A DNA stretch of 64,000 nucleotides from contig JADYYS010000039.1 of the NCBI GenBank assembly GCA_020853525.1, forward strand, positions 140,587-204,586. Reading direction: 5' to 3'. Below are positions 15,677 through 49,634 of the stretch, in pieces. The stretch is from Ardenticatenales bacterium. Lineage in GTDB: Bacteria; Chloroflexota; Anaerolineae; Epilineales; Epilineaceae. Each line of letters opens with the position of its first letter. Positions within the stretch are counted from its first letter, which is position 1. Below the pieces are notes generated by a model. The model did no database searches, was not told the origin of the DNA, and worked only from the letters and a program-made list of their open reading frames with translations. The position numbers and the translations under genes are program-made.

Positions 15677-17503
15677 TCAGCCGGTGGGCTCCGGCAGCGT
15701 GGCGGTCAACGCGGCCACGCGGTCGACCATCTCCGCGAGCACGGCGAACGCGGCGTCGACCGGATCGCGGGAGCGCATGTCCACGCCGGCGCGCTCGAGG
15801 AGAGCGAGCGGGAAGTCGGAGCCGCCCGCGCCGAGGAACGTGCGATAGGCCCCGACCGCGCCGGGCGCACCGCCGAGGACGCGCTCGGCCAGCGCGTTGG
15901 CGGCGCTGATGCCGGTGGCGTACTGATAGACGTAGAAGTTGGAGTAGAGGTGGGTGTGGAACTGCGCCCACGTGATCCCGTCGCGATCCCGGTCGACGAC
16001 GACCTCGTCGCCGTACCCCTCCTCGAACAGGTCGGCCAGCAGGCCGTTCATGACGTCGGCGTTCAGCGGCTGGCCGCGCTCGGCGCGCTCGTGCAGCGCC
16101 AGCTCGAAGCGGGCGAGGGTGGGCATAAGGAAGAAGTAGCGGTGGAAGTTGCTGAACGCCTCCTCGAGCAGTGCCAGCTGGAACGCGGGCGCCTGCTGGT
16201 GCTCGAGCAGCCAAGCGCGCACGAGCGCCTGGTTGAAGTTCGATGCCACCTCGGCGGCGAACAGGCCGTAGCGCGCCGTGGCGTACGGCTGCGTGCGGCG
16301 GGAATAGTACGAGTGCATGGAGTGCCCGATCTCGTGGGCCAGCGTGCTCAGGCTGAAGATGTCGTCGTTGTAGCTCATGAAGATGAACGGATGGGTGTCG
16401 TAGCTACCCGTCGAGAAGGCACCGGAACGCTTGCCGACGTTCGGGTAGATGTCCACCCAGCGGCCGGTCGTCAGCCCTTCGGCCATCACGGACACGTAGT
16501 CGTCCCCGAGCGGCCGCATGCCTTCGATGATCCATTCCACGGCCTGCGCGTACGGCACGACGGGCGGGGCGGCCGTCAACGGCGCCTTGAGATCGTACGG
16601 ATGGAGCGTGTCCAAGCCGAGGGCGCCGCGCCGCCAGCGAAAGTAGCGATGCCACGTGGGCAGGTTCGCCCGGAAGGCGGCCAGGAGGTTGTCGTAGACG
16701 TCGCGCGGCACGAAGGTCTGGGCGAGCGCCGCGTCGACGCTGGAAGGGTAGCGGCGCGCCGCGGCGAAGAACGCGTCCTGCTTGATCCCGGCCGCCAGCG
16801 CCGTGGCCATTGTCTGCTTGCACGCAAGGTGCGCATCGGCGTAGCTCTCGTACGCCGTCCGCCGCACGCCACGATCCGGGTGGGTGACGAGCGCGCCGAT
16901 CGTCCCCTGGGCCACGGCGTGCGCGGTGCCGTCGGCGCCCACGGCCGGCGCGAACGCCAGCTCGGCGTTGGCCAGGACGGAGTGGACGGAAGACGCGGTG
17001 CGAAACGGGTCGCTGATCTGACCGAACACCGCTTCGACCTCGGCCGACCGGACATGCGGCCGACGGCGCTCCAGGCGATCGAAGCCGTGCGCGTAGGGAC
17101 CGAGGGCGGGCTCATGCGCCACCCAGTCGCGCAGCGTCGCCGCCTCGATCGCGAGAACCTCGGGCTCGTAGAAGGCGGTCGCACCGGCCACGCGCGATCC
17201 GAGCGAGCGCATTCGGTCGACCATCGCCAGCGCTTCGGCGTCGGCGGCATCGACCGCCGCGAACATGCTGGCGAACAGCCAGACCCGCTCGAACGGCCGG
17301 GCGAGCGCCTCCATCGCCGTCAGGCACGTCAGCAGCTGCGCCGGACCTTGCGCCAGCGTACCGGCGAACGCCGCGACGGCCGGCAGCGCCGCCTCGACGC
17401 CGGCGACCGCCAGCTCCCATGCAGCGCGGTCCGGAAACACGCTCTCGACGTCCCAGGTGGATGCGGGGTCGACGTCCCGGCGGATGGGCAAGGCGGCGGT
17501 CAT
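15677..17503 (-). CDS. pepF: Oligoendopeptidase F (M3 family metallopeptidase)
   Basis: A 608-residue zinc peptidase. The HEIGHSMHS motif (HExxH) near residue 387 supplies the two zinc His and the catalytic Glu, with the downstream Glu ligand in LFAAEVASNFNQ. The PepF signature region FNQALVRAWLLEH is present. The family cleaves 7-17 residue peptides in the cytoplasm, and no signal peptide is seen. ATG 17503 follows AGGAG with suitable spacing, so the longer upstream frame was rejected. A second M3 peptidase of a different subgroup lies at 58589. Gene order gives no further clue. Confidence 0.94.
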   Translation of the reverse strand: MTAALPIRRDVDPASTWDVESVFPDRAAWELAVAGVEAALPAVAAFAGTLAQGPAQLLTCLTAMEALARPFERVWLFASMFAAVDAADAEALAMVDRMRSLGSRVAGATAFYEPEVLAIEAATLRDWVAHEPALGPYAHGFDRLERRRPHVRSAEVEAVFGQISDPFRTASSVHSVLANAELAFAPAVGADGTAHAVAQGTIGALVTHPDRGVRRTAYESYADAHLACKQTMATALAAGIKQDAFFAAARRYPSSVDAALAQTFVPRDVYDNLLAAFRANLPTWHRYFRWRRGALGLDTLHPYDLKAPLTAAPPVVPYAQAVEWIIEGMRPLGDDYVSVMAEGLTTGRWVDIYPNVGKRSGAFSTGSYDTHPFIFMSYNDDIFSLSTLAHEIGHSMHSYYSRRTQPYATARYGLFAAEVASNFNQALVRAWLLEHQQAPAFQLALLEEAFSNFHRYFFLMPTLARFELALHERAERGQPLNADVMNGLLADLFEEGYGDEVVVDRDRDGITWAQFHTHLYSNFYVYQYATGISAANALAERVLGGAPGAVGAYRTFLGAGGSDFPLALLERAGVDMRSRDPVDAAFAVLAEMVDRVAALTATLPEPTG

Positions 17504-17622: not shown

Positions 17623-17652
17623 CGACCGCCCGGCAGATCTGCCGGGCGGTCG
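17623..17652. terminator. 30-bp perfect palindrome downstream of the cysteine-repeat gene
   Basis: A perfect 30-bp inverted repeat centred on AGATCT lies 48 bp beyond the stop of the minus-strand cysteine-repeat gene and 120 bp before the pepF start. No U-run follows on either strand. It could be a terminator hairpin or a protein-binding palindrome. Confidence 0.6.
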
Positions 17653-17699: not shown

Positions 17700-19736
17700 C
17701 TAGCGGGCCGGAATCAGCGCCGCAACGGGCCTGAGGCACTCCGTCAGGCAGCGCTGGATTTCCTGCGCCATCACCTCGGTGCAGCTCTCGACCGTGCCGC
17801 CGCCCGCCACGCAGCGCTGGAACACCGCCGCGCCGGCCCGCGCGCACTTCGTGCTGCAATCCGGAATCGGCGCCGGCGGCACCTGCTTGTCGCAGTGCTT
17901 GATGCAAACGTCGTACGACTCCTTGGCCCGTCCTTCGCACGCCTGCTGCTCGCCGCCCTCGGCCAGGCACTTCGCCAGCACCTCGCGCGCCGCCTTGGCG
18001 CACCGGTCCTGGCAGTCGATCGGCTGCGGCCGGGGGCAGCCCTTCAAGCAGACTTCGAGTGCGGCGCGCATCCGCTCGCGGCAGACCGCTTCCTCGCCGC
18101 CGTCGGCCCGGCAGGCCTTGAAGACGGCCTCCGCCCGCTGCTTGCAGCCCGCCTCGCACGACTCCGTCGGCCGCTCGCACGCGGCGATGCAGGCATTCAG
18201 GGCGTGGCTCTTCTCGCCCAGGCAGTCTTCCTCGCCCGCTCCGCGTTCGCGACACGCGTTGTAGACCGCCTCGGCCTTCGCGTTGCACTGAGCGCGGCAG
18301 CTCTCCGGCTTTGGCGTCGGCCTCGGGCAGCGGGCCAAGCAGTCCAGGAGGACTTTGTTCGACCGTTCGTGGCAGGCCTTCTCGTCGCCGCCGCCCTGGA
18401 TGCAGGCCTTGAGCTCGGCCGCCGCGTGCTCCTTGCACCGGCCCTCGCACGACAGCGACTGCGGGGTCTTGGAGGCTTCGGGGCGCGGACACGCCAAGAG
18501 GCACGCCTCCTTGGCCTTGTGCGCCTCGGCCTCGCAGTCATCCGGCCCGCGGCCCGACGCGATACAAGCGTTGTAGACCTCGTCGAAGCGCTTCTTGCAC
18601 TTCTCCTCACAGTTCCCGATCCGTGTCGGTTCCGGCTTCGGACACATGCTTGCGCACTTCTCGCGTGCCGTCTTCGCCTCGCGCTCGCAGACGTCCGGCC
18701 CGTGTCCGCCGGCGATGCAGGCCTTGTAGACCGCCTCGGCCTCCGCCGCGCAGCGCTGCTCGCACGTCTTTTCCGGAGGACCCGGCGTCTTCGTCGCATC
18801 GCGCGGGCAATCCTTGAAGCACGCCTCCTTGGCCTGGCGCGCCTCGTTCTCGCATGCGTCCGGCCCGCGGCCCGAGGCAATGCAGGCGTTGTAGACCTCG
18901 TCGAAGCGCTTCTTGCACTTCTCCTCACAGTTCCCGATCCGCGTCGGTTCCGGCTTCGGGCACGCGGCAGCACACTTCTCGCGCGCCGCCTTCGCCTCGC
19001 GCTCGCAGACGTCCGGCCCGTGTCCGCCGGCGATGCAGGCCTTGTAGACCGCCTCGGCTTCCGCCGCGCAGCGCTGCTCGCACGTCTTTTCCGGAGGACC
19101 CGGCGTCTTCGTCGCATCGCGCGGGCAATCCTTGAGACATGCCTCCTTGGCCTGACGCGACTCGTTCTGGCAGGCATCCGCGCCCCGGCCCGCCGCGATG
19201 CAGGCCTTGTAGATCTCCTCGGCATGCGCACCGCACCGCTGCGTGCAGCTGCGCTCGCTCGGCACGGGGGTGGCCGTGGCGTCCGGCCGCGGGCACTCCT
19301 TCAGGCACGCCAGCTTCGCGTCGGCCGACTCCTTGTGACAGGCTTCCTCGCCGCGGCCGGCTTCGATGCACGCCTTGAACACCGCCTCTGCGCGCTGCCG
19401 GCACTTGTCCTCGCAGGTCGGCACGGCCGTCGACCGCGAGCACTCCCGCATGCAGGCCTCGCGCGCCGCACTCGACTCCTTTTCGCATGCGTCCGGGCCG
19501 CGGCCCATCGCGATGCACGCCTCGTACACCTCGTGCGCCCGGGCGTTGCAGCGCTGCTCGCACGTCGGGGTGGGCGATGGGACGGGCGTCGCCTCCTGGT
19601 GGGGCGCGGCGGCGCTCGTCGACGACGGGATCCGGAACGTGAAGCCCAGACAGAACAGGGCAAGGCACAGCGACGCCCATCGTCCGAGGTGCGGGCGACG
19701 TGCGGCCGGGCCGATCGTCCGTTGCAGTGTGGTCAC
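17700..19736 (-). CDS. Secreted protein with twelve six-cysteine twin-CX3C repeats
   Basis: A 678-residue protein. An N-terminal hydrophobic export segment (about 18-45) is followed by twelve modules of 45-56 residues. Each has exactly C-x3-C-x10-C-x9-C-x10-C-x3-C, giving 72 cysteines. Between the outer CxxxC pairs, both halves look like amphipathic helices (for example CEQRCAAEAEAVYKAC). The arrangement suggests a disulfide-stapled helical hairpin similar in spacing logic to CHCH or small-Tim folds, joined by Pro-rich linkers (DATKTPGPPEK, PKPEPTRIG). GTG 19736 was chosen because AGGAGG lies seven bases before it. Modules 4-5 and 6-7 are near copies. No family is recognised; a structural, adhesive or metal-binding secreted role is inference only. 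Confidence 0.85.
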   Translation of the reverse strand: MTTLQRTIGPAARRPHLGRWASLCLALFCLGFTFRIPSSTSAAAPHQEATPVPSPTPTCEQRCNARAHEVYEACIAMGRGPDACEKESSAAREACMRECSRSTAVPTCEDKCRQRAEAVFKACIEAGRGEEACHKESADAKLACLKECPRPDATATPVPSERSCTQRCGAHAEEIYKACIAAGRGADACQNESRQAKEACLKDCPRDATKTPGPPEKTCEQRCAAEAEAVYKACIAGGHGPDVCEREAKAAREKCAAACPKPEPTRIGNCEEKCKKRFDEVYNACIASGRGPDACENEARQAKEACFKDCPRDATKTPGPPEKTCEQRCAAEAEAVYKACIAGGHGPDVCEREAKTAREKCASMCPKPEPTRIGNCEEKCKKRFDEVYNACIASGRGPDDCEAEAHKAKEACLLACPRPEASKTPQSLSCEGRCKEHAAAELKACIQGGGDEKACHERSNKVLLDCLARCPRPTPKPESCRAQCNAKAEAVYNACRERGAGEEDCLGEKSHALNACIAACERPTESCEAGCKQRAEAVFKACRADGGEEAVCRERMRAALEVCLKGCPRPQPIDCQDRCAKAAREVLAKCLAEGGEQQACEGRAKESYDVCIKHCDKQVPPAPIPDCSTKCARAGAAVFQRCVAGGGTVESCTEVMAQEIQRCLTECLRPVAALIPAR
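18551..19186 (-). repeat. 318-bp tandem duplication inside the cysteine-repeat gene
   Basis: Two adjacent segments of 318 bp (106 codons, two modules) are nearly identical. For instance, the TTGTAGACCTCGTCGAAGCG segment recurs at 18571 and 18889, and CGCACGTCTTTTCC at 18761 and 19079. The other modules are clearly diverged, so this is the most recent expansion of the array. Confidence 0.85.
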
Positions 19737-37784: not shown

Positions 37785-38566
37785 GCCTCGACGAGCGCCG
37801 GAAGCGCCGTGGCCGCTCCGGCGCGCACGACGTGGTCGGCATGCGCCGACAGCGGCGTCGGCGCCGGGTTGATCTCGATCAGGACGGCGCGGTGCTCCAG
37901 CGCGCGCAGCGGGAAGCTGGCCACCGGCTCGACCTCGCCGGACGTCCCGACGCTCACGAGGACGTCACACGCGCGGATGGCCCGCAGCGCCCGTCCGACG
38001 GCCGCCATCGGCAGCGCCTCGCCGAACCACACGACGTCCGGCCGCAGCCGCCCGCCGCATGCGGGGCAGCGCGGGGGCACGACGGTCGAGGCGTCATGGG
38101 CACCGGCCTCGCCCCCGTCGGCGCGGCAGTCGAAGCACCGCGTGCGGTGGATGTCGCCGTGGACCGCGACGACGTTCCGGCTGCCGGCGGCGCGGTGCAG
38201 ACCGTCGATGTTCTGCGTCACGACGGTCACCGATCCGCCCCGCGCCGCGAACCGTGCCTCGAGCGCCGCCAGCGCCACGTGGCCCGCGTTCGGCCGGGCG
38301 CCAGCCATCGACCGGCGCCGCTCGGCGTACCAACGCCATACCTTGCCCGCGTCGCGCTCGAACGCGCGCGGCGTGGCGAACTCGTCGGGGTCGAACATCG
38401 ACCAGATCCCGCCCGCGTCGCGGAACGTCGGGATCCCGCTCTCGGCGGACATGCCGGCACCGGTCAGGACGACGACGCGGCGGGCAAGGACCAGCGCGCC
38501 GGCGGCCGCCGTGATCTGGACATTCTCGGTCGCGACGGCGGAGCGCAGCGACGGGTTTGGTAGCAT
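37775..38566 (-). CDS. cobB: Sir2-family NAD-dependent protein deacylase
   Basis: A 263-residue sirtuin. The NAD site is GAGMSAESGIPTFRD, with TQNIDGLH (the Asn/Asp of catalysis) and the catalytic His in VAVHGDI. The zinc ribbon has CFDC and CPACGG. SVGTSGEVEP and LIEINPAPTPLSAHADH complete the Rossmann half. Residues typical of class III (SIRT5-like) desuccinylases, Tyr and Arg about 30 residues after the GAG motif, appear in WRWYAERRR. This suggests deacylation of acidic acyl groups as well as acetyl-lysine. ATG 38566 follows GGGAGG. Gene symbol by family. Confidence 0.94.
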   Translation of the reverse strand: MLPNPSLRSAVATENVQITAAAGALVLARRVVVLTGAGMSAESGIPTFRDAGGIWSMFDPDEFATPRAFERDAGKVWRWYAERRRSMAGARPNAGHVALAALEARFAARGGSVTVVTQNIDGLHRAAGSRNVVAVHGDIHRTRCFDCRADGGEAGAHDASTVVPPRCPACGGRLRPDVVWFGEALPMAAVGRALRAIRACDVLVSVGTSGEVEPVASFPLRALEHRAVLIEINPAPTPLSAHADHVVRAGAATALPALVEACA

Positions 38567-38652
38567 GGTGCCTCCCTGGGCCGAGTATAGCCCCGACCGA
38601 TCGGCTACACTCGTGCCTGCGACGATCCGACCTGCGCCGACCCGAGCCGCCG

Positions 38653-41600
38653 ATGATCCCTCCCGTCAATGCCCGCGCCCTGTCCGCCGCCCTCCGCACC
38701 GCCCTCATCGGTGCGGCCGTCGCCGTCCCGGCGGCCGTCGCCGCGCTCCGCCCCACCCCCCCCGCCGCCGCGCAGACCGTCGGCCGCTGGGGCCTCGCCG
38801 ACAGCATCCACCTGCCGCCCTTGCCTGCGGCGCCGATCGACATCGCGCTCGACCGAACCGGCGAGCTGCTGCTGGCCGATGGGGACAACCGGGCGGTGCA
38901 AGTGTACCGGGGCGGCGAGATCGAGCCTTCGGCCTGGTGGCAGGCACCCGAGGAGCTGAATGCCCTCACGCCGCGGCCGGACCTGCCCTCCGTGCGGCTG
39001 CCGTACGCCGTCGCCGCCGACCCGCGCCAGAGCAGCGGCCGCCGGTACGTGCTCTGGGCGGAGATCTTCCAAGGCTCGGACAGCCTGGGGGACGGCGTCA
39101 CGGTCTACTATCTCGAGTGCCGCCTGCCCGACGGCCAGCGCGAGTCCGTCGTGCGCGTCGACACGTTCGAGCTGGCGCGCGGCGACCTCGGCGTCGCGGT
39201 CGATCTGGCGGTCCACCCGCGGACGGGCGACGTCATCGCCGTCCTCGGCGGCACCGCGCTGCGCGTCGATCGCGCTTCCGGCGAGACCCAGCGCCTGACC
39301 AGGATCGGGCGCGACGGCGAGCTCGTCCGGTTCGCCGTCGCGCCCGGTGGCGACATGGTGGCGGCATCGCCCTGGATCGGCCTCGTCGTACGGTTCGACC
39401 TGCGGGGCGACGTCGTGCGGTCCTTCGATCTCGGCGCCAGCGGCTATGTCCCGCTCGCCGTCGCCGTCGACGCCGCCGACGCCGTGTACGCCCTCGTCCG
39501 GCCCGAGTCCGCGGCGACGACCGACCCGGCGCTGCTCGTGACGTTCGACGCCGCCGGCCGCCCGGTCGTCGTCTGGACGGCCCGCGCGCTCGGCGCGCCG
39601 TCGCCCGAGGGCGACTGGCCGTTCGCGCTGGCGATGGCCGACGACGGCCCGGCCGGCGGCTGGGCGGTGACGACGACGGGCCCGGCGCCGGGCGGCCGGC
39701 TGCGCGTGCAGGGCCGCCTGGCCGGCGGCGGCGCGCGGGCGGCGATCGTCGGGACGACGGCCAAGCCGGCGTGGGCGCCGCGGCTGGGGGGCGAGGCTTG
39801 GGGCAGCGGGATCGCGCTGGCGGCACCCTCCGCCGGCGAGCGCGACGGGGCGAGCGTGGCCGCCCTCGACCTGCGCGGCGAGCGCGTCGTGGCATATGCC
39901 GACGGCGGCGCGATGATCGGCAGCCGGATCGTGCCGAGCAACACGCTCGACATCGCCATGGGGGCGGAGGCCGAGGTCTACCTGACGACCGCCGACGGGG
40001 CCGTCGAGCGGCGCGGGTACATCGGCCAGACCGGGTGGAGCGATCTGCCGGCCGTCTGGAGGGTGCCCGTGGCGCTGGCGCTCGGCGGGCGGATCAGCGC
40101 CGGCACGCACCTCGCCGTGACGCAGCCCCGCGGCCGCGAGGCGGTGCTGCTCGACCTCGATTCGGGCGGCGAGACCGGCCGGATCCGCTGGCCGGCCGGC
40201 CAGGGCCTCTGGCCCACCGATGTCGCCGCCCTGGCGCCCGACGCGGCGTTCCCGACCGGCATCGTCCTGACCGCCGACCTCGTCGCCGCCCGCGTGCAGG
40301 GCTGGAATCCGATCGCGCCCGGTCCGCTGCGCGGCGACTGGCCGATGGGCCTGCTGGCCGGACCGCGCCGTCTGGCGGTCGCGACGGTGCCGGACGCCGT
40401 GGCGGCCCAGGCGGGGGCGCGCTCGACCACGTGGGTCGCCGGGCTCCTGGCGGACGGCACCGTCGAGGTGCATGCGCTGACCGAGCGCGACGAGTCGCTC
40501 GTCGGACGCTTCTCGCCTCGCCGCGGCGACGGCACGCTGATCAGCGCCGACGACATCGCCCTCGACCGCTTCGGCGCCGTCTGGCTCTCCGACCGCCGCC
40601 GCGCCTCCCTCCACGTCTTCGTGTCGGGCGGCGGCACGCCGATGCCCCCGTCCTGGACACCCGGCCCGTCGCCCACGCCGGCGGCCACACCGACGTTCTC
40701 GCCCGGCGCGTGCATGGTCACGGGCGACAAGGTGGCCGGCCCGCCGCGGATCGTCCTCGGCGCGACGGCGAACGTCACGCTCACGCTGGCCGCCCGCTGC
40801 CCCGCCACGACGCGCCTCGCCGGCGCCGACGTCCTGCTGGCGATCGACCGCTCGGGCTCGATGGCCGGCGCCAAGCTGGCCGCGGCGCAGGCGGCGGCAC
40901 GGACGTTCACCGAGCTGCTCGACGTCCGCCACCATCGCGTCGGCCTCGTCGCGTTCGAGACGACGGCATCGATCGTCTCGCCGCTGTCCACCGACCTCGT
41001 CCGGACGATCGACGCCCTCGACGGCCTCGCCGCAACGGGCTCGACGAACCTGGCGGCGGCGATCGACACCGCCGTGGCCCACTTGGTGGCCGCCGGGCGG
41101 CCGGACGCGCTGCCGGTCGTCGTGCTCCTGACGGACGGCCGGCAGAACGGGCCCGGCGATCCGCTCCTGGCCGCCGATGCCGCCCGCCGGTCCGGCACCC
41201 AGCTCTACACGATCGGCCTCGGCGCGGACGTGAACCGCCCGGCGCTCGTCGCGATCGCCGGGCGGCAGGACCGGTTCTTCGACGCGCCGATGCCCGAGGA
41301 CCTGTTTCCGGTGTACGGCGAGATCCTGCGCTCCGTGACGACGAGCCTGGCGGGCAACCTCGTCATCGACGACGCGATGGGCGGCGAGGTCGAGCTCGTG
41401 GCCGGCTCGGCGCGGCCTGCGGCGTTCGAGGACGGGACGCGGGCGCTGCAATGGGGCCGGACGCTGTTGCCGGAGAGCGGGATCACGCTGACCTACCAGA
41501 TCCGACCGCTCCGGACCGGCCGCCTGCGGACGAACCTTGGCGCCGTGGCGGAGTACTCCGACGGCGACGGCGCGCGCCGGACGTTCACGTTTCCGGTCCC

Positions 41601-42246
41601 CGAGATCGAGGTCGTCGCCCCGACGCCCACGCCGACCGCCACCCCGACACCGCTGCCGCGCCCGGTCTACCTGCCGGCCGCCTACCGTCTCGCCTGCCTG
41701 CCCGGCGCGCGGCGCAACGACGTCGTCGTCGTGATCGACACGTCGGGCAGCATGGTCGGCGCCAAGCTGGAGGCGGCCAAGGCCGCGGCGCGGACGTTCG
41801 TCGGCCTGCTCGGCGAGAGCGGCGACCTGGCGGCCGTCATCGGCTTCAGCGAGCAGCCGACGCTGGCCGCCGGCCTGACGGGCGACGACGCCGTGCTGAT
41901 GGCGGCCATCGACGGCCTCGCCTCGAGCCCCGGCACCCGGATCGACCGCGCGCTGCGGGCCGCTGCCGGCGAGCTCGCCGGCAGCCCGAACCGCCGGCCC
42001 GGCAGCCGCGGGGTGGTCGTTCTCCTGTCCGACGGCACACAGAACGGCCCCGTCGAGCCGGTGCGCGAGGTGGCGACCGCCTTGAAGGCCTCGGGCACGC
42101 TCGTCTTCGCGATCGGACTGGGCGCGGACGTCGATGCCGCGCTGCTCGTGGACGTCGCCAGCCCGGACGGGTACCGCGCGGCGGCGGACGAACGGGTGCT
42201 GGAGGAGATCTATCGCGGGCTGGCGGCCGTCGTCGCCTGTCGCTGA
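38653..42246 (+). CDS. Surface protein: NHL-type propeller, vWA, Tyr-Leu-Pro motif, second vWA
   Basis: A 1197-residue protein. Signal peptide (about 10-42). Propeller of about 600 residues (IDIALDRTGELLLADGDNR is an NHL-like blade). Pro/Thr linker. A two-Cys strand module (CMVTGDKVAGPPRIVLG...RCP). vWA1 with intact MIDAS DRSGS and TDGRQNG. A post-vWA beta domain ending FPVPEIEVVAP. Pro/Thr linker. PVYLPAAYRLAC. vWA2 with DTSGS and SDGTQNG, ending in Cys-Arg. The layout is shared with the 46056 protein. ATG 38653 has no clear ribosome binding site; TACACT (38606-38611) is a possible -10. An adhesion or complex-assembly role at the surface is inference. Confidence 0.88.
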   Translation: MIPPVNARALSAALRTALIGAAVAVPAAVAALRPTPPAAAQTVGRWGLADSIHLPPLPAAPIDIALDRTGELLLADGDNRAVQVYRGGEIEPSAWWQAPEELNALTPRPDLPSVRLPYAVAADPRQSSGRRYVLWAEIFQGSDSLGDGVTVYYLECRLPDGQRESVVRVDTFELARGDLGVAVDLAVHPRTGDVIAVLGGTALRVDRASGETQRLTRIGRDGELVRFAVAPGGDMVAASPWIGLVVRFDLRGDVVRSFDLGASGYVPLAVAVDAADAVYALVRPESAATTDPALLVTFDAAGRPVVVWTARALGAPSPEGDWPFALAMADDGPAGGWAVTTTGPAPGGRLRVQGRLAGGGARAAIVGTTAKPAWAPRLGGEAWGSGIALAAPSAGERDGASVAALDLRGERVVAYADGGAMIGSRIVPSNTLDIAMGAEAEVYLTTADGAVERRGYIGQTGWSDLPAVWRVPVALALGGRISAGTHLAVTQPRGREAVLLDLDSGGETGRIRWPAGQGLWPTDVAALAPDAAFPTGIVLTADLVAARVQGWNPIAPGPLRGDWPMGLLAGPRRLAVATVPDAVAAQAGARSTTWVAGLLADGTVEVHALTERDESLVGRFSPRRGDGTLISADDIALDRFGAVWLSDRRRASLHVFVSGGGTPMPPSWTPGPSPTPAATPTFSPGACMVTGDKVAGPPRIVLGATANVTLTLAARCPATTRLAGADVLLAIDRSGSMAGAKLAAAQAAARTFTELLDVRHHRVGLVAFETTASIVSPLSTDLVRTIDALDGLAATGSTNLAAAIDTAVAHLVAAGRPDALPVVVLLTDGRQNGPGDPLLAADAARRSGTQLYTIGLGADVNRPALVAIAGRQDRFFDAPMPEDLFPVYGEILRSVTTSLAGNLVIDDAMGGEVELVAGSARPAAFEDGTRALQWGRTLLPESGITLTYQIRPLRTGRLRTNLGAVAEYSDGDGARRTFTFPVPEIEVVAPTPTPTATPTPLPRPVYLPAAYRLACLPGARRNDVVVVIDTSGSMVGAKLEAAKAAARTFVGLLGESGDLAAVIGFSEQPTLAAGLTGDDAVLMAAIDGLASSPGTRIDRALRAAAGELAGSPNRRPGSRGVVVLLSDGTQNGPVEPVREVATALKASGTLVFAIGLGADVDAALLVDVASPDGYRAAADERVLEEIYRGLAAVVACR

Positions 42247-45118: not shown

Positions 45119-46059
45119 GCGCCGCCAAGCGGCTGCGCGGCGGCGAGATCGTCTACCACGAGACGCTCTCCGGTCGGCACCAGGCCGGTGTTCGCTGCGT
45201 CCGATGCGGCCGCGTGATCAACGTCGAGTGGACCGCGGACGACCTGGCGGACGTCGAGTGCCGGGGCCACGGCCTTCGGCTCGGGCGCTGCGCCACGTGC
45301 TATGTGGACGAGGTGGACGGGGTGGATGCCGACGATGCCGTCGCCGACGACGGCATCGGTTTGCCTGCCGCCTCGAACGCGCCCGGCGAAGGCTACGTCT
45401 ACGTCACGCTCGAGCCCGGCGGCCGGCTCTTGGCCGGGCCATCGGATTACGACCGCTGCGCCGACCTCGAGGTCCTCCTGACCGGCGTGGCCAGCTGCGG
45501 CTGCTGCCACGTGACGGTCGTCCACTGCGGCTGGTGCGCCGCGCCGGTGGCGACGCGCCACCCTGCCCTCGAGGACGTCGACGAGGCCGTCGACTGCGGC
45601 TACTGCAACCACTGCGACCGGATCATCACCGTCGTGCCCAACAAGGGCGTGCCCGGCAAGAGCGGCGGCCGAGCGAGCGGCATGCGCAAGGACGGCAATC
45701 GCCCCGACGGCAGTCGCCCTGACGGCAGTCGCCCCGACAGCGTGCGACCGGACGCCAGCCGACCGACCGGTGCCCGCCGCTCGCACCTCTTCATCGACCG
45801 CGTCGCCTCGCCCGACGAGGTGGCCGACGAGCGCTGGGCGATCTGGCGCCAGCACACGCTCGACGAGGTCGACGACGTCGCGACGTGGCTGTCCATGCTC
45901 GACGAGATCCCGCAGAGCGACCTCGAGCTGCTCGAGATCTCGGCCGATCAGATCGAGTTCCCGCGCCGCCAGGCCCGCCTGACGATGGAGGGCTGGCTGG
46001 CGACCTTCGGCGGCCGCGGCGGCGTCGCGCCGAGCGAGCCGCGGGACGCTTCGGAGTGA
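45115..46059 (+). CDS. Cys-rich zinc-ribbon-type protein of unknown function
   Basis: A 314-residue protein. It has five close cysteine pairs: RCVRCGR and CATC form one likely zinc ribbon, and SCGCCH, HCGWC and DCGYCNHC further metal or redox sites. Five 5-residue repeats (DGSRP type, about 193-217, encoded by a 15-bp DNA repeat at 45691-45765) then lead into an acidic helical C-terminal region. No signal peptide is seen, so it is probably cytoplasmic. It is coupled by GTGA overlaps to sufE upstream and to the large vWA gene downstream. No family is recognised; handling of metal or sulfur is inferred only from Cys content and the SufE partner. Confidence 0.8.
   Translation: MSAAKRLRGGEIVYHETLSGRHQAGVRCVRCGRVINVEWTADDLADVECRGHGLRLGRCATCYVDEVDGVDADDAVADDGIGLPAASNAPGEGYVYVTLEPGGRLLAGPSDYDRCADLEVLLTGVASCGCCHVTVVHCGWCAAPVATRHPALEDVDEAVDCGYCNHCDRIITVVPNKGVPGKSGGRASGMRKDGNRPDGSRPDGSRPDSVRPDASRPTGARRSHLFIDRVASPDEVADERWAIWRQHTLDEVDDVATWLSMLDEIPQSDLELLEISADQIEFPRRQARLTMEGWLATFGGRGGVAPSEPRDASE
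45691..45765 (+). repeat. 15-bp coding tandem repeat, five units
   Basis: Units of GACGGCAGTCGCCCC type start at 45691, 45706, 45721, 45736 and 45751, the last two degenerate. They encode a DGSRP linker in the zinc-ribbon protein. Confidence 0.85.
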
Positions 46060-49000
46060 GCGCCGGCGCGAGGCGCGCGACGCTGCGGATCGTGACGCGG
46101 CTGTTCGTCGCGACGCTCGTCGCCGTGCTCCGTGCGCCGCTCGAGCCGGCCAGCGGCCAGACCGTCGTCCCGAGCGGTCACCACCGGCTCATCGCCACCC
46201 GCACGGCCGCCCCGTGGCACCTCACGGCGGGCCGCTACGGCAACGCCACCGACATCGCCGCCGGGCCGGACGGCACGTTGTACGTGCTGGACGCGGTGAA
46301 CGCCGCCGTCCACGTCGTCGCGGGCGGCACGCCACAGGCAGTGTGGCGCGTGCCGGACGCGGCCGATCGCAGCCTGCTGGCCGTCGACTTCGCCCCGGAC
46401 GGTACGCTCGTCGTCCTGTCCTCGTGCCCGAACTGCCGCCCGCTGGCGCGCATCGACCGCCTGACGGTGGACGGCACGGTCCGCGCCCAGCTGCCGCTCG
46501 ACGAGCGCTACCGCGACATCGCCGCCCATCCGGACGGCCGGCAGTTCCTGACGCGCCCGACCGAGGCTTTCCGACTGAACGAGCCGGAGCCGGCGGTCGA
46601 CATCTACACGGCGGACGGCGGCTATGTCAGCAGCCTGCGCGATCCGATGATGGTCCTGCCGCAGCGCGTCGACATCGCGCCGGACGGCACGGTCCACGTG
46701 CTCCACACGATCCCGCCGCCGCCCCGCAGCGGCGGCGGTGGCGGTGGGCGGCCGCTGCCGCCCGGTCCGAGCGGTCCGAGCGGTGTCGACCAGGCGCCGA
46801 CCGAGCCCGTCAGCGGCGTCATCGTCTTCGCACCCGATCTGAGCCGGCAACGGGTCATCCCGTTCGACGGCGGCATCGACGTCGGGGCGGGCGACGGGCT
46901 GGCCGTGATTTCGGGCTACGGCCGGGTGCACATCGAGGGTGAGGACACGCCGCTGACGCGCGTCGTCGGACCCGGCTGGACGGGCGAGCCGCACGTGGCG
47001 GTGCTCGGTCCTGACGCCGTCGCCGCCGCGCTGGACCACTGCACGTGGCAGGGCGTCCTTTGGATCGACACGCTGCGCCGGCGGCCGGAAGCCCCGTGGC
47101 GCCTCGCGGGGGCGCTCGACGAGCCGGCTCTCGCCGGCCCGGTCGCACCGCGGCGCGTGGCGGCCGGCACGGACGTCGCCGTCCTGCAGGATCTGTTCGC
47201 CCCGCTCACGGACCGCACGGAAGGCTACACGGACGTCCCGTCCATGGCGGTCCCGCCGGCGGGCGCGCGGGCGATCCAGTCCATCCAGCGCTGGACGGCC
47301 GCCGGCGCGCTGGCGGACCAGCTGGGCCACTGCGCCGGCGGGCGTCAGGCCGACTGGGGCCGCGACGTCGCCGTCGGTCGCGACGCCCCGCCGCCGCCGG
47401 ACGGCCCGCCGGTGTACGTGATCGACGATGCATGCATCATCCAGCGCCCGAACGACGCCTTCCCGGGCTGGCGCTACTGCCCGCGCGGCCTGTGGGGCGC
47501 GTCCGTCGGGACCTCGCTTCTGGCTGTCGGCGCCGACGCGAACCACGTCGCCGTGCTCGACGCGGCAGCGGCGGGCGTCGCCGTCGTGGACCCGGCCGGC
47601 GCGCACGTCGCGCACTGGCAGCTCGGCGGCGCATCGACCGGGGATCCGACGGCGGACCCGGCTGTCACCGGTACCGTCGCGAGCGCGGTCGACATCGACG
47701 TGCGGGGCGGTGTCATCGCCCTGGCGCTGCGCGGCGCGCGCCTTGTCGAACGGCGGACGGTGGACGGCACGCTGCTCGGCCGGTTCAAGTCCTACGATAC
47801 GCCCGACGCGCTGGCGCTCGGGCCGGACGGCTCGGTCTACGTCCTCGGCCACGGCGGCTGGGTCACGCGCTTCGCATCGGACGGTACCGTCCTGGACACG
47901 TGGTCCCTGCCCGGCGAGGGCGCCGTGCCCTATGACCTGACGGTGGACGACGTCGGCCGGGTGCACGTGGCGTGGCAGCGGCTGGCCGCCAACGGGCGGA
48001 ACGACACGCACCAGGGCGGCGGCATTTGGGTGTACGCGCCCGACGCCGACGTGCCGCCCATGGTTCGACCGAACACCGCCTGCACGCTGACGCGCGACAA
48101 GACGGCACAGCCGGCCCGCGTGCCCCTGGGCGGCGAGGTCACCGTCACGCTGACGATGGCCGGCAGCTGCCCGGCCGCGCGCGGCCCGCTCCAGCTGGCC
48201 ATCGTATTCGACCGCTCGCGCTCGATGGGCTGGGGCTACACGATCGCCCGCGCCCAAGCGGCCGTCTGGGCAACGCTCGGCGCGCTCGACCCTGCCACGA
48301 CCGAGGTGAGCCTCGTGGCGTTCAGCGAAGTGCCGGCCGTCCTGTCGCCGCTCACGCGCGACCTGCCGAGCGTGGCGCGCGCCGTTGGGACGCTGCAGGC
48401 GGCGGGCGACACCCGCCCGGGCGATGCGCTCGCCGCCACGCTCGACGTGCTGGCGGCTGCCCGCCGGCCCGGCGTCCCGCAGGCGATTCTCCTCGTCACG
48501 GACGGCGTGCCGTACGATCAGTCGTCGGCGGCGCTGGCGCGGTTGGCGGCGGAGGGTGTGACGCTGACGGCGTTCCTCTTCGACAACGGCGAGGACGCGC
48601 CGGACGGGACGTTCGTCGACGAGCTGCGCCGCAGCAGTACGCAGTTCGCGTTCGAGCCGTCGCCGGACGCGGCAGCGGCGCTCATCGGCGCCGTCGCCGA
48701 GGCCGCGAGCCCGCCGATCGTGCCGCCGCTCCTGCTTGCTCAGGCGACGATCGTCGACCGGCTGCCGCTGGACATGCGCTACGTGGCCGGGTCCGCGGTT
48801 CCGCCGGCGACGTACGACGGCGCGGCGCGAACGTTGACGTGGCGGATCGCCGACATCGTCGCCGGCGGGCGGCCGGTCCTCACGTTCCGCGTCACGGCCC
48901 AGCAGGTGGGCGTGCGCCCGACGAACGTGGATGCGACGGCCGACGTCGTGGACGGCGTCGGCGCCGCGGGACGGATCGTCTTCCCGGTGCCCGAGGTCAC

Positions 49001-49634
49001 GGTCTTCGCGCCGCGGGCCATCTACCTGCCGTTCGCCGTCCGCGAGGCCTGCACGCGCCGCGCCCGACCGCTGGACGTCGTGCTGGCGATCGACACGTCC
49101 CAGAGCATGACGGAGCCGGCCGGCGCCGGCGCGTCCGTCACCAAGCTGGCCGCCGCCGTCGCCGCCGCGCGCGCGTTCGTGGACCAGCTCTGGCTGACCG
49201 GCGACGCCGCGACGACGGACCGCGCCGCGATTGTGGCGTTCGACGATGCCGCCCGCGTGATCGTCCCGCTCACGGACGACGCGAACGCGCTGCGCGTGGC
49301 CCTCGCCGGCGCCGAAACCGACCCCGGCACGCGCCTGGACCGCGGCCTCGACGCCGCGCTCGTCGCGCTGGGCGCCGCCCGAACGGACGCCCGCACGGCG
49401 GTGGTGCTCCTGACGGACGGCCGCCAGAACGGCGAACTGGCGCCGGTCGTCGTCGCCGCCGAGCGCGTCCGGGCCACCGGCGCCCAGCTCCACGTCGTCG
49501 GCCTCGGCGCGGACGTGGACGCGCCGTTCCTGCGGACGCTGGTGGCGACGGCGGAAGCGTACCACGCGGCGGCGGGGGCGGCGGAGCTTATCGCACTGTA
49601 CGAGAGCTTGTCGGAGGGGCTGGTCTGCCGGTAG
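46056..49634 (+). CDS. Surface protein: propeller, vWA, Tyr-Leu-Pro motif, second vWA (paralogue of 38653-42246)
   Basis: A 1192-residue protein. Export segment (about 10-32, ending PASGQT). Propeller to about residue 665 (GPDGTLYVLD, GPDGSVYVLGHGG). Two-Cys strand module CTLTRDKTAQPARVPLG...SCP. vWA1 whose MIDAS is DRSRS, so Gly is replaced. Post-vWA beta domain with RLPLDMRYVAGSA and ending FPVPEVTVFAP. AIYLPFAVREAC. vWA2 with DTSQS and TDGRQNG, ending VCR. GTG 46056 overlaps the zinc-ribbon stop (GTGA), so it is the third gene of a sufE operon. It matches the 38653 protein module by module. Surface location is inferred from the signal and linkers. Confidence 0.87.
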   Translation: MSAGARRATLRIVTRLFVATLVAVLRAPLEPASGQTVVPSGHHRLIATRTAAPWHLTAGRYGNATDIAAGPDGTLYVLDAVNAAVHVVAGGTPQAVWRVPDAADRSLLAVDFAPDGTLVVLSSCPNCRPLARIDRLTVDGTVRAQLPLDERYRDIAAHPDGRQFLTRPTEAFRLNEPEPAVDIYTADGGYVSSLRDPMMVLPQRVDIAPDGTVHVLHTIPPPPRSGGGGGGRPLPPGPSGPSGVDQAPTEPVSGVIVFAPDLSRQRVIPFDGGIDVGAGDGLAVISGYGRVHIEGEDTPLTRVVGPGWTGEPHVAVLGPDAVAAALDHCTWQGVLWIDTLRRRPEAPWRLAGALDEPALAGPVAPRRVAAGTDVAVLQDLFAPLTDRTEGYTDVPSMAVPPAGARAIQSIQRWTAAGALADQLGHCAGGRQADWGRDVAVGRDAPPPPDGPPVYVIDDACIIQRPNDAFPGWRYCPRGLWGASVGTSLLAVGADANHVAVLDAAAAGVAVVDPAGAHVAHWQLGGASTGDPTADPAVTGTVASAVDIDVRGGVIALALRGARLVERRTVDGTLLGRFKSYDTPDALALGPDGSVYVLGHGGWVTRFASDGTVLDTWSLPGEGAVPYDLTVDDVGRVHVAWQRLAANGRNDTHQGGGIWVYAPDADVPPMVRPNTACTLTRDKTAQPARVPLGGEVTVTLTMAGSCPAARGPLQLAIVFDRSRSMGWGYTIARAQAAVWATLGALDPATTEVSLVAFSEVPAVLSPLTRDLPSVARAVGTLQAAGDTRPGDALAATLDVLAAARRPGVPQAILLVTDGVPYDQSSAALARLAAEGVTLTAFLFDNGEDAPDGTFVDELRRSSTQFAFEPSPDAAAALIGAVAEAASPPIVPPLLLAQATIVDRLPLDMRYVAGSAVPPATYDGAARTLTWRIADIVAGGRPVLTFRVTAQQVGVRPTNVDATADVVDGVGAAGRIVFPVPEVTVFAPRAIYLPFAVREACTRRARPLDVVLAIDTSQSMTEPAGAGASVTKLAAAVAAARAFVDQLWLTGDAATTDRAAIVAFDDAARVIVPLTDDANALRVALAGAETDPGTRLDRGLDAALVALGAARTDARTAVVLLTDGRQNGELAPVVVAAERVRATGAQLHVVGLGADVDAPFLRTLVATAEAYHAAAGAAELIALYESLSEGLVCR

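Follow-up and report, generated by a model that had tools for sequence, protein, structure and literature searches.

The 64,000-nucleotide stretch of DNA analysed here (the window) comes from an Ardenticatenales bacterium (contig JADYYS010000039.1). On its minus strand it carries a gene for a predicted secreted protein built from tandem six-cysteine modules. The module pattern, C-x3-C-x10-C-x9-C-x10-C-x3-C, spans 41 residues and has exactly twelve matches in the 678-residue protein, in agreement with the original prediction of twelve modules holding 72 cysteines. The gene and its parts are laid out as follows:

17700..19736, minus strand: module-array gene, GTG start at 19736, TAG stop ending at 17700, 678 amino acids
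19605..19736, minus strand: Sec-type signal peptide, residues 1-44, with cleavage read from the sequence at about ...SAAA/PHQEA
19440..19562, minus strand: module 1
19293..19415, minus strand: module 2
19125..19247, minus strand: module 3
18960..19082, minus strand: module 4
18807..18929, minus strand: module 5
18642..18764, minus strand: module 6, sharing 93% identity with module 4 through recent duplication
18489..18611, minus strand: module 7, sharing 83% identity with module 5 through recent duplication
18327..18449, minus strand: module 8
18177..18299, minus strand: module 9
18036..18158, minus strand: module 10, the subject of a single-module AlphaFold2 model
17892..18014, minus strand: module 11
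17736..17858, minus strand: module 12

The GTG start is preceded by an AGGAGG ribosome site. The chain contains 74 cysteines, 72 in the modules and two in the signal peptide, and its mature form has none outside the modules. Pairwise identity among the twelve modules ranges from 24 to 93%. Modules 4-5 and 6-7, linkers included, differ at 28 of 276 nucleotides, which marks a recent duplication and indicates that the repeat count is not an echo of the assembly.

High-GC windows are rich in spurious open frames, and the array could be imagined as a product of chance or of a frame artefact. The probability of this is negligible. Shuffled versions of the protein contain on average 0.003 matches to the pattern and never more than one (2000 shuffles), and the pattern is absent from all other reading frames of the window. 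GC by codon position is 0.65/0.58/0.89, with the high third-position value consistent with coding. An artefact is refuted by the homologues, whose DNA has diverged yet still encodes the modules in frame.

Module spacing and relatives

Intact modules number 43 across eight genes in three genomes, all from one GTDB family of Anaerolineae. The exported arrays carry three to twelve modules, and one further gene has a single module on a membrane protein. The source genome holds two module genes besides the twelve-module one, encoding a three-module exported protein (contig C72) and the single-module protein (contig C53). The two other genomes of the family encode four-, nine-, three-, three- and at least eight-module proteins, the nine-module gene belonging to the metagenome-assembled genome Anaerolineae bacterium OFTM155 (JAJCYU01). 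In one of these genomes an array is split by a frame break, which may reflect assembly error or decay, and one of its modules is truncated and lacks C1 and C2 (G002 contig C383, L040:2107-3719). As in the twelve-module protein, five further mature chains have no cysteine outside their modules.

All six cysteines are complete in each of the 43 modules. These were gathered with a pattern in which the first two gaps and the C4-C5 gap were fixed, and those gaps (3, 10 and 10 residues for C1-C2, C2-C3 and C4-C5) are constant throughout; a looser pattern (x2-4, x8-12, x5-13) applied to the same loci revealed no other helix lengths, bar the one truncated unit. The central gap is 7, 8, 9 or 10 residues in 4, 12, 26 and 1 modules, respectively, the last gap (C5-C6) is 3 or 4, and module length is 39-42 residues. 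The invariant spacing claimed in the original prediction thus describes the twelve-module gene and not the family. Likewise, its expectation that modules recur in other exported proteins holds for recurrence and for the constant helix lengths, but turn length differs. Constant CX10C helices joined by a variable turn are what would be expected if the helices of a hairpin are rigid and its turn is free to change length.

The single-module protein is a single-pass membrane protein in which the module ends a Pro/Thr-rich stalk. Its gene overlaps that of an extracytoplasmic function (ECF) sigma factor (both at L035:5054-6650), and the two resemble a sigma/anti-sigma pair whose outer tip would be the module. 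This arrangement was not seen in the two related genomes.

Searches of the other four order members and of the rest of a class sample (396 genomes) yielded no module. Among 400 genomes sampled from the phylum, no match emerged beyond the source genome; a hit in one further genome (G393) was a SbcC-like coiled coil without the cysteines and was discarded as spurious. GTDB contigs and IMG/VR were scanned with patterns, and plasmids and phages were searched by tblastn; these searches, which have low sensitivity outside the phylum, returned only the known relative. In these searches, occurrence therefore appears confined to one family of Anaerolineae, and it may be wider.

Known families and predicted fold

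Database searches agree with the earlier statement that no bacterial family of this description is known, as no credible Pfam, NCBIfam, PHROG or PDB match emerged. The twelve-module protein had no NCBIfam match and only sub-cutoff Pfam matches to unrelated families. Tautomerase-like, Aldolase_II and DUF6818 from Pfam and phrog_32541 from PHROGs were rejected as sub-cutoff or composition-driven, and were not repeated in single-module scans. When 42 modules were scanned singly, scattered weak matches to small cysteine-rich toxin and thionin families appeared, none near the cut-off. Membership of the thionin/viscotoxin family (PF00321) was rejected, since its best expectation value (E) of 0.033 was below the cut-off and covered the middle of the module only; Toxin_13 matched only at E 0.099. 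PHROGs gave nothing consistent for the modules. A PDB sequence search with the whole chain found no match, PDB profile matches to viscotoxins and a designed binder were dismissed as marginal, and Foldseek returned nothing at E below 0.001.

Structure prediction points more clearly to a fold. An AlphaFold2 model of module 10, built with 21 alignment rows, has a predicted local distance difference test score (pLDDT) of 95.2 and consists of helices at residues 3-20 and 25-41. For modules 3-5, modelled with 17 rows from the window and OFTM155, three separate hairpins are predicted, joined by linkers that are disordered (pLDDT below 50). Small and hydrophobic residues cluster at positions 9, 12 and 13 of helix 1 and 30, 33 and 34 of helix 2. 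The position pairs 1/41, 5/37, 9/33, 12/30 and 16/26 each sum to 42, forming a mirror-symmetric ladder of five layers: Cys, Cys, Ala, Ala, Cys. In an ideal-helix model, the pairings C1-C6, C2-C5 and C3-C4 are jointly satisfied at an inner spacing of 10, and also of 6, 9 and 13, but not of 8, 11 or 12. Geometry and the palindromic core pattern thus support these three rungs, and it is from this geometry and the predicted fold that we infer the disulfides and their pairing.

Oxidation outside the membrane is plausible given the enzymes encoded. The source genome has a DsbB with a CVLCWYQR motif and a second cysteine pair, as well as three DsbA-like proteins; DsbB is present in all three module-bearing genomes, and so are DsbA-like proteins. 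As a side observation (locus G000:C39:118791-119156 and a comparison across the order), VKOR is absent from these three genomes (0/3), and the other four genomes of the order show the reverse (DsbB 0/4, VKOR 4/4). Such a switch was rejected as a signature of the module-bearing family, because DsbB occurs in 72 of 298 genomes of the class.

With the confident predicted hairpin, the geometry, the core pattern, the Dsb oxidases and the recurrence in relatives all in its favour, a disulfide-stapled helical hairpin on a secreted chain, as originally proposed, is very probably the structure of the module.

Several known folds resemble this design. Plant alpha-hairpinins with four or six cysteines (for example, EcAMP1, VhTI, Nigellin-1.1 with PDB entry 2NB2, and the twelve-module Sm-AMP-X precursor) are antiparallel helical hairpins with nested cysteine rungs, as predicted here, and their precursors also place tandem modules and linkers behind a signal peptide, with up to twelve hairpins in tandem (PMC7191063). 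Their motifs are CX3C-x4-20-CX3C or CX3CX3C-x4-20-CX3CX3C (PMC11591084). None of the 43 modules has this spacing, as the bacterial inner cysteine pair lies 10 residues further in; the modules are also 39-42 residues long, bacterial, not cationic and without a sequence match to the plant peptides. The earlier comparison with twin-CxxxC hairpins carrying two extra central cysteines was apt. CHCH or twin CX9C proteins (COA6, with CX9C-CX10C, COX17 and MIA40) resemble the predicted module in having two stapled helices with about three helical turns between cysteines, but have two disulfides and CX9C (or CX10C) spacing. The bacterial module instead has twin CX10C and a third, outer pair through CX3C, occurs in tandem in secreted bacterial chains, and has no CHCH family among its Pfam matches. 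Since the spacing fits neither the alpha-hairpinin nor the CHCH definition, we assign the module to a new family of bacterial domains, of the disulfide-stapled helical-hairpin type.

In structure comparison, the neighbours were mostly ordinary helical hairpins, with stapled ones included at middling Z. The CHCH protein Coa6 was listed too (6PCF; Z 3.0, rmsd 5.1 Å). The nearest stapled folds were the venom hairpins acrorhagin I (6UX5; Z 5.1, root-mean-square deviation (rmsd) 1.8 Å over 41 residues) and neurotoxin B-IV (1VIB; Z 4.5, rmsd 2.3 Å over 43 residues). These two are short hairpins of similar length with several disulfides (PMC11722136). However, they are single-domain animal peptides with four disulfides, and they match with weak Z and no sequence homology seen.

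Possible roles and gene neighbourhood

On balance, the explanation we favour is an exported beads-on-a-string protein of stapled hairpins with a scaffold-like role. In each 41-residue module, a short Gly/Asp/Pro turn would connect two antiparallel helices. Each helix would carry its three cysteines along one face, and these would pair as C1-C6, C2-C5 and C3-C4 into a ladder of three disulfides, with two layers of small residues, mostly Ala, between rungs C2-C5 and C3-C4. The Pro-rich linkers, 6-15 residues long, would form flexible joints between the rigid beads. Sec export would come first, after which DsbA/DsbB would oxidise each module independently, and chain length would change through module duplication. 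The function itself is proposed more tentatively: the likeliest role for the chain would be that of an extracellular scaffold, spacer or adhesive, highly stable and resistant to proteases.

Some observations weigh against this explanation. Modules within a single protein show considerable diversity, more than a mere filler would require. The structural Z values are no higher than the range for unrelated helical hairpins, and a test for volume covariation between the two core layers showed nothing. The scaffold role, for its part, is drawn mostly from the architecture, and the evidence that disfavours its rivals is weak.

The array could also be a polyprotein precursor whose linkers are cut to free single hairpins as active peptides. 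Plant alpha-hairpinin precursors have the same architecture, with a signal peptide, 5-12 tandem hairpins and linkers (PMC7191063), the modules differ from each other, and the gene just upstream of the three-module paralogue encodes a secreted subtilase. Nevertheless, this is unlikely. With a mean charge of -0.7, and +3 or more in 2 of 43, the modules range from neutral to slightly acidic, unlike cationic antimicrobial peptides, and antimicrobial action is disfavoured because they are near neutral. A dibasic site occurs in just 3 of 34 linkers, and no protease of known matching specificity was identified.

The neighbouring genes bear on a further possibility, that of a multi-headed protease inhibitor in which each turn presents a cleavage-site loop, as in VhTI and BWI-2c. 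The features adjoining the twelve-module gene are:

15677..17503, minus strand: M3 oligoendopeptidase F gene, downstream neighbour on the same strand
17624..17651, no strand assigned: perfect 28-bp palindrome just 3' of the stop, its outer arms also matching, a terminator-like stem without a T run

A terminator scan found no canonical terminator. The nine-module gene of OFTM155 (G001) also lies directly upstream of an oligoendopeptidase F gene on the same strand (L037:4480-7957), such that the adjacency is kept in two genera; no module gene stands beside oligoendopeptidase F in three outgroup genomes. This common adjacency suggests that the twelve- and nine-module arrays are orthologues.

That several module genes adjoin peptidase genes (of family M3 in two genomes and of S8 in one) speaks for an inhibitor, and plant alpha-hairpinins include canonical trypsin inhibitors with a P1 Arg in the interhelical loop. 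However, oligoendopeptidase F is normally cytosolic. The turns are rich in Gly/Asp/Pro and variable in length, contain any K/R in just 22 of 43 cases and show no conserved P1. Inhibition of fixed specificity is disfavoured because no turn residue is conserved, and we regard an inhibitor as improbable. A broader variant, itself rather unlikely, would make the array an independently evolved bacterial counterpart of the plant multi-module precursor: its twelve differing hairpins, set free or kept on display, would act as heads for binding or inhibition, and the domain would be reused as the outer tip of the sigma-factor-linked membrane protein.

Finally, the thiols might remain unoxidised and hold a soft metal such as Cu(I), as those of Csp copper storage proteins do. 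Csps also have CXXXC cysteines on helices that point into the helical core, MtCsp1 is exported (PMC5171941), and 72 thiols would provide high capacity. Csps are, however, four-helix bundle tetramers with reduced cysteines and no sequence match to the module, and no copper-storage family is among the Pfam and NCBIfam matches. The module, a predicted two-helix unit, has cysteines that fall into three rung pairs and few His or Met residues, and the genome encodes DsbB and DsbA-like oxidases. A metal store is thus quite improbable.

To our knowledge, helical hairpins with three disulfides have been described only in eukaryotes. A bacterial domain family of this build, with up to twelve repeats and restricted in these searches to one Anaerolineae family, would clearly exemplify convergent design. 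The modules would also readily supply small helical scaffolds of high stability and pose a demanding natural substrate to a bacterial Dsb system, and their functions are directly testable with recombinant modules.

Elsewhere in the window, positions 38557-42246 and 45885-49634 encode two large secreted proteins of about 1240 residues each. Both have a C-terminal region with von Willebrand A domains, with 36% identity over about 500 residues.
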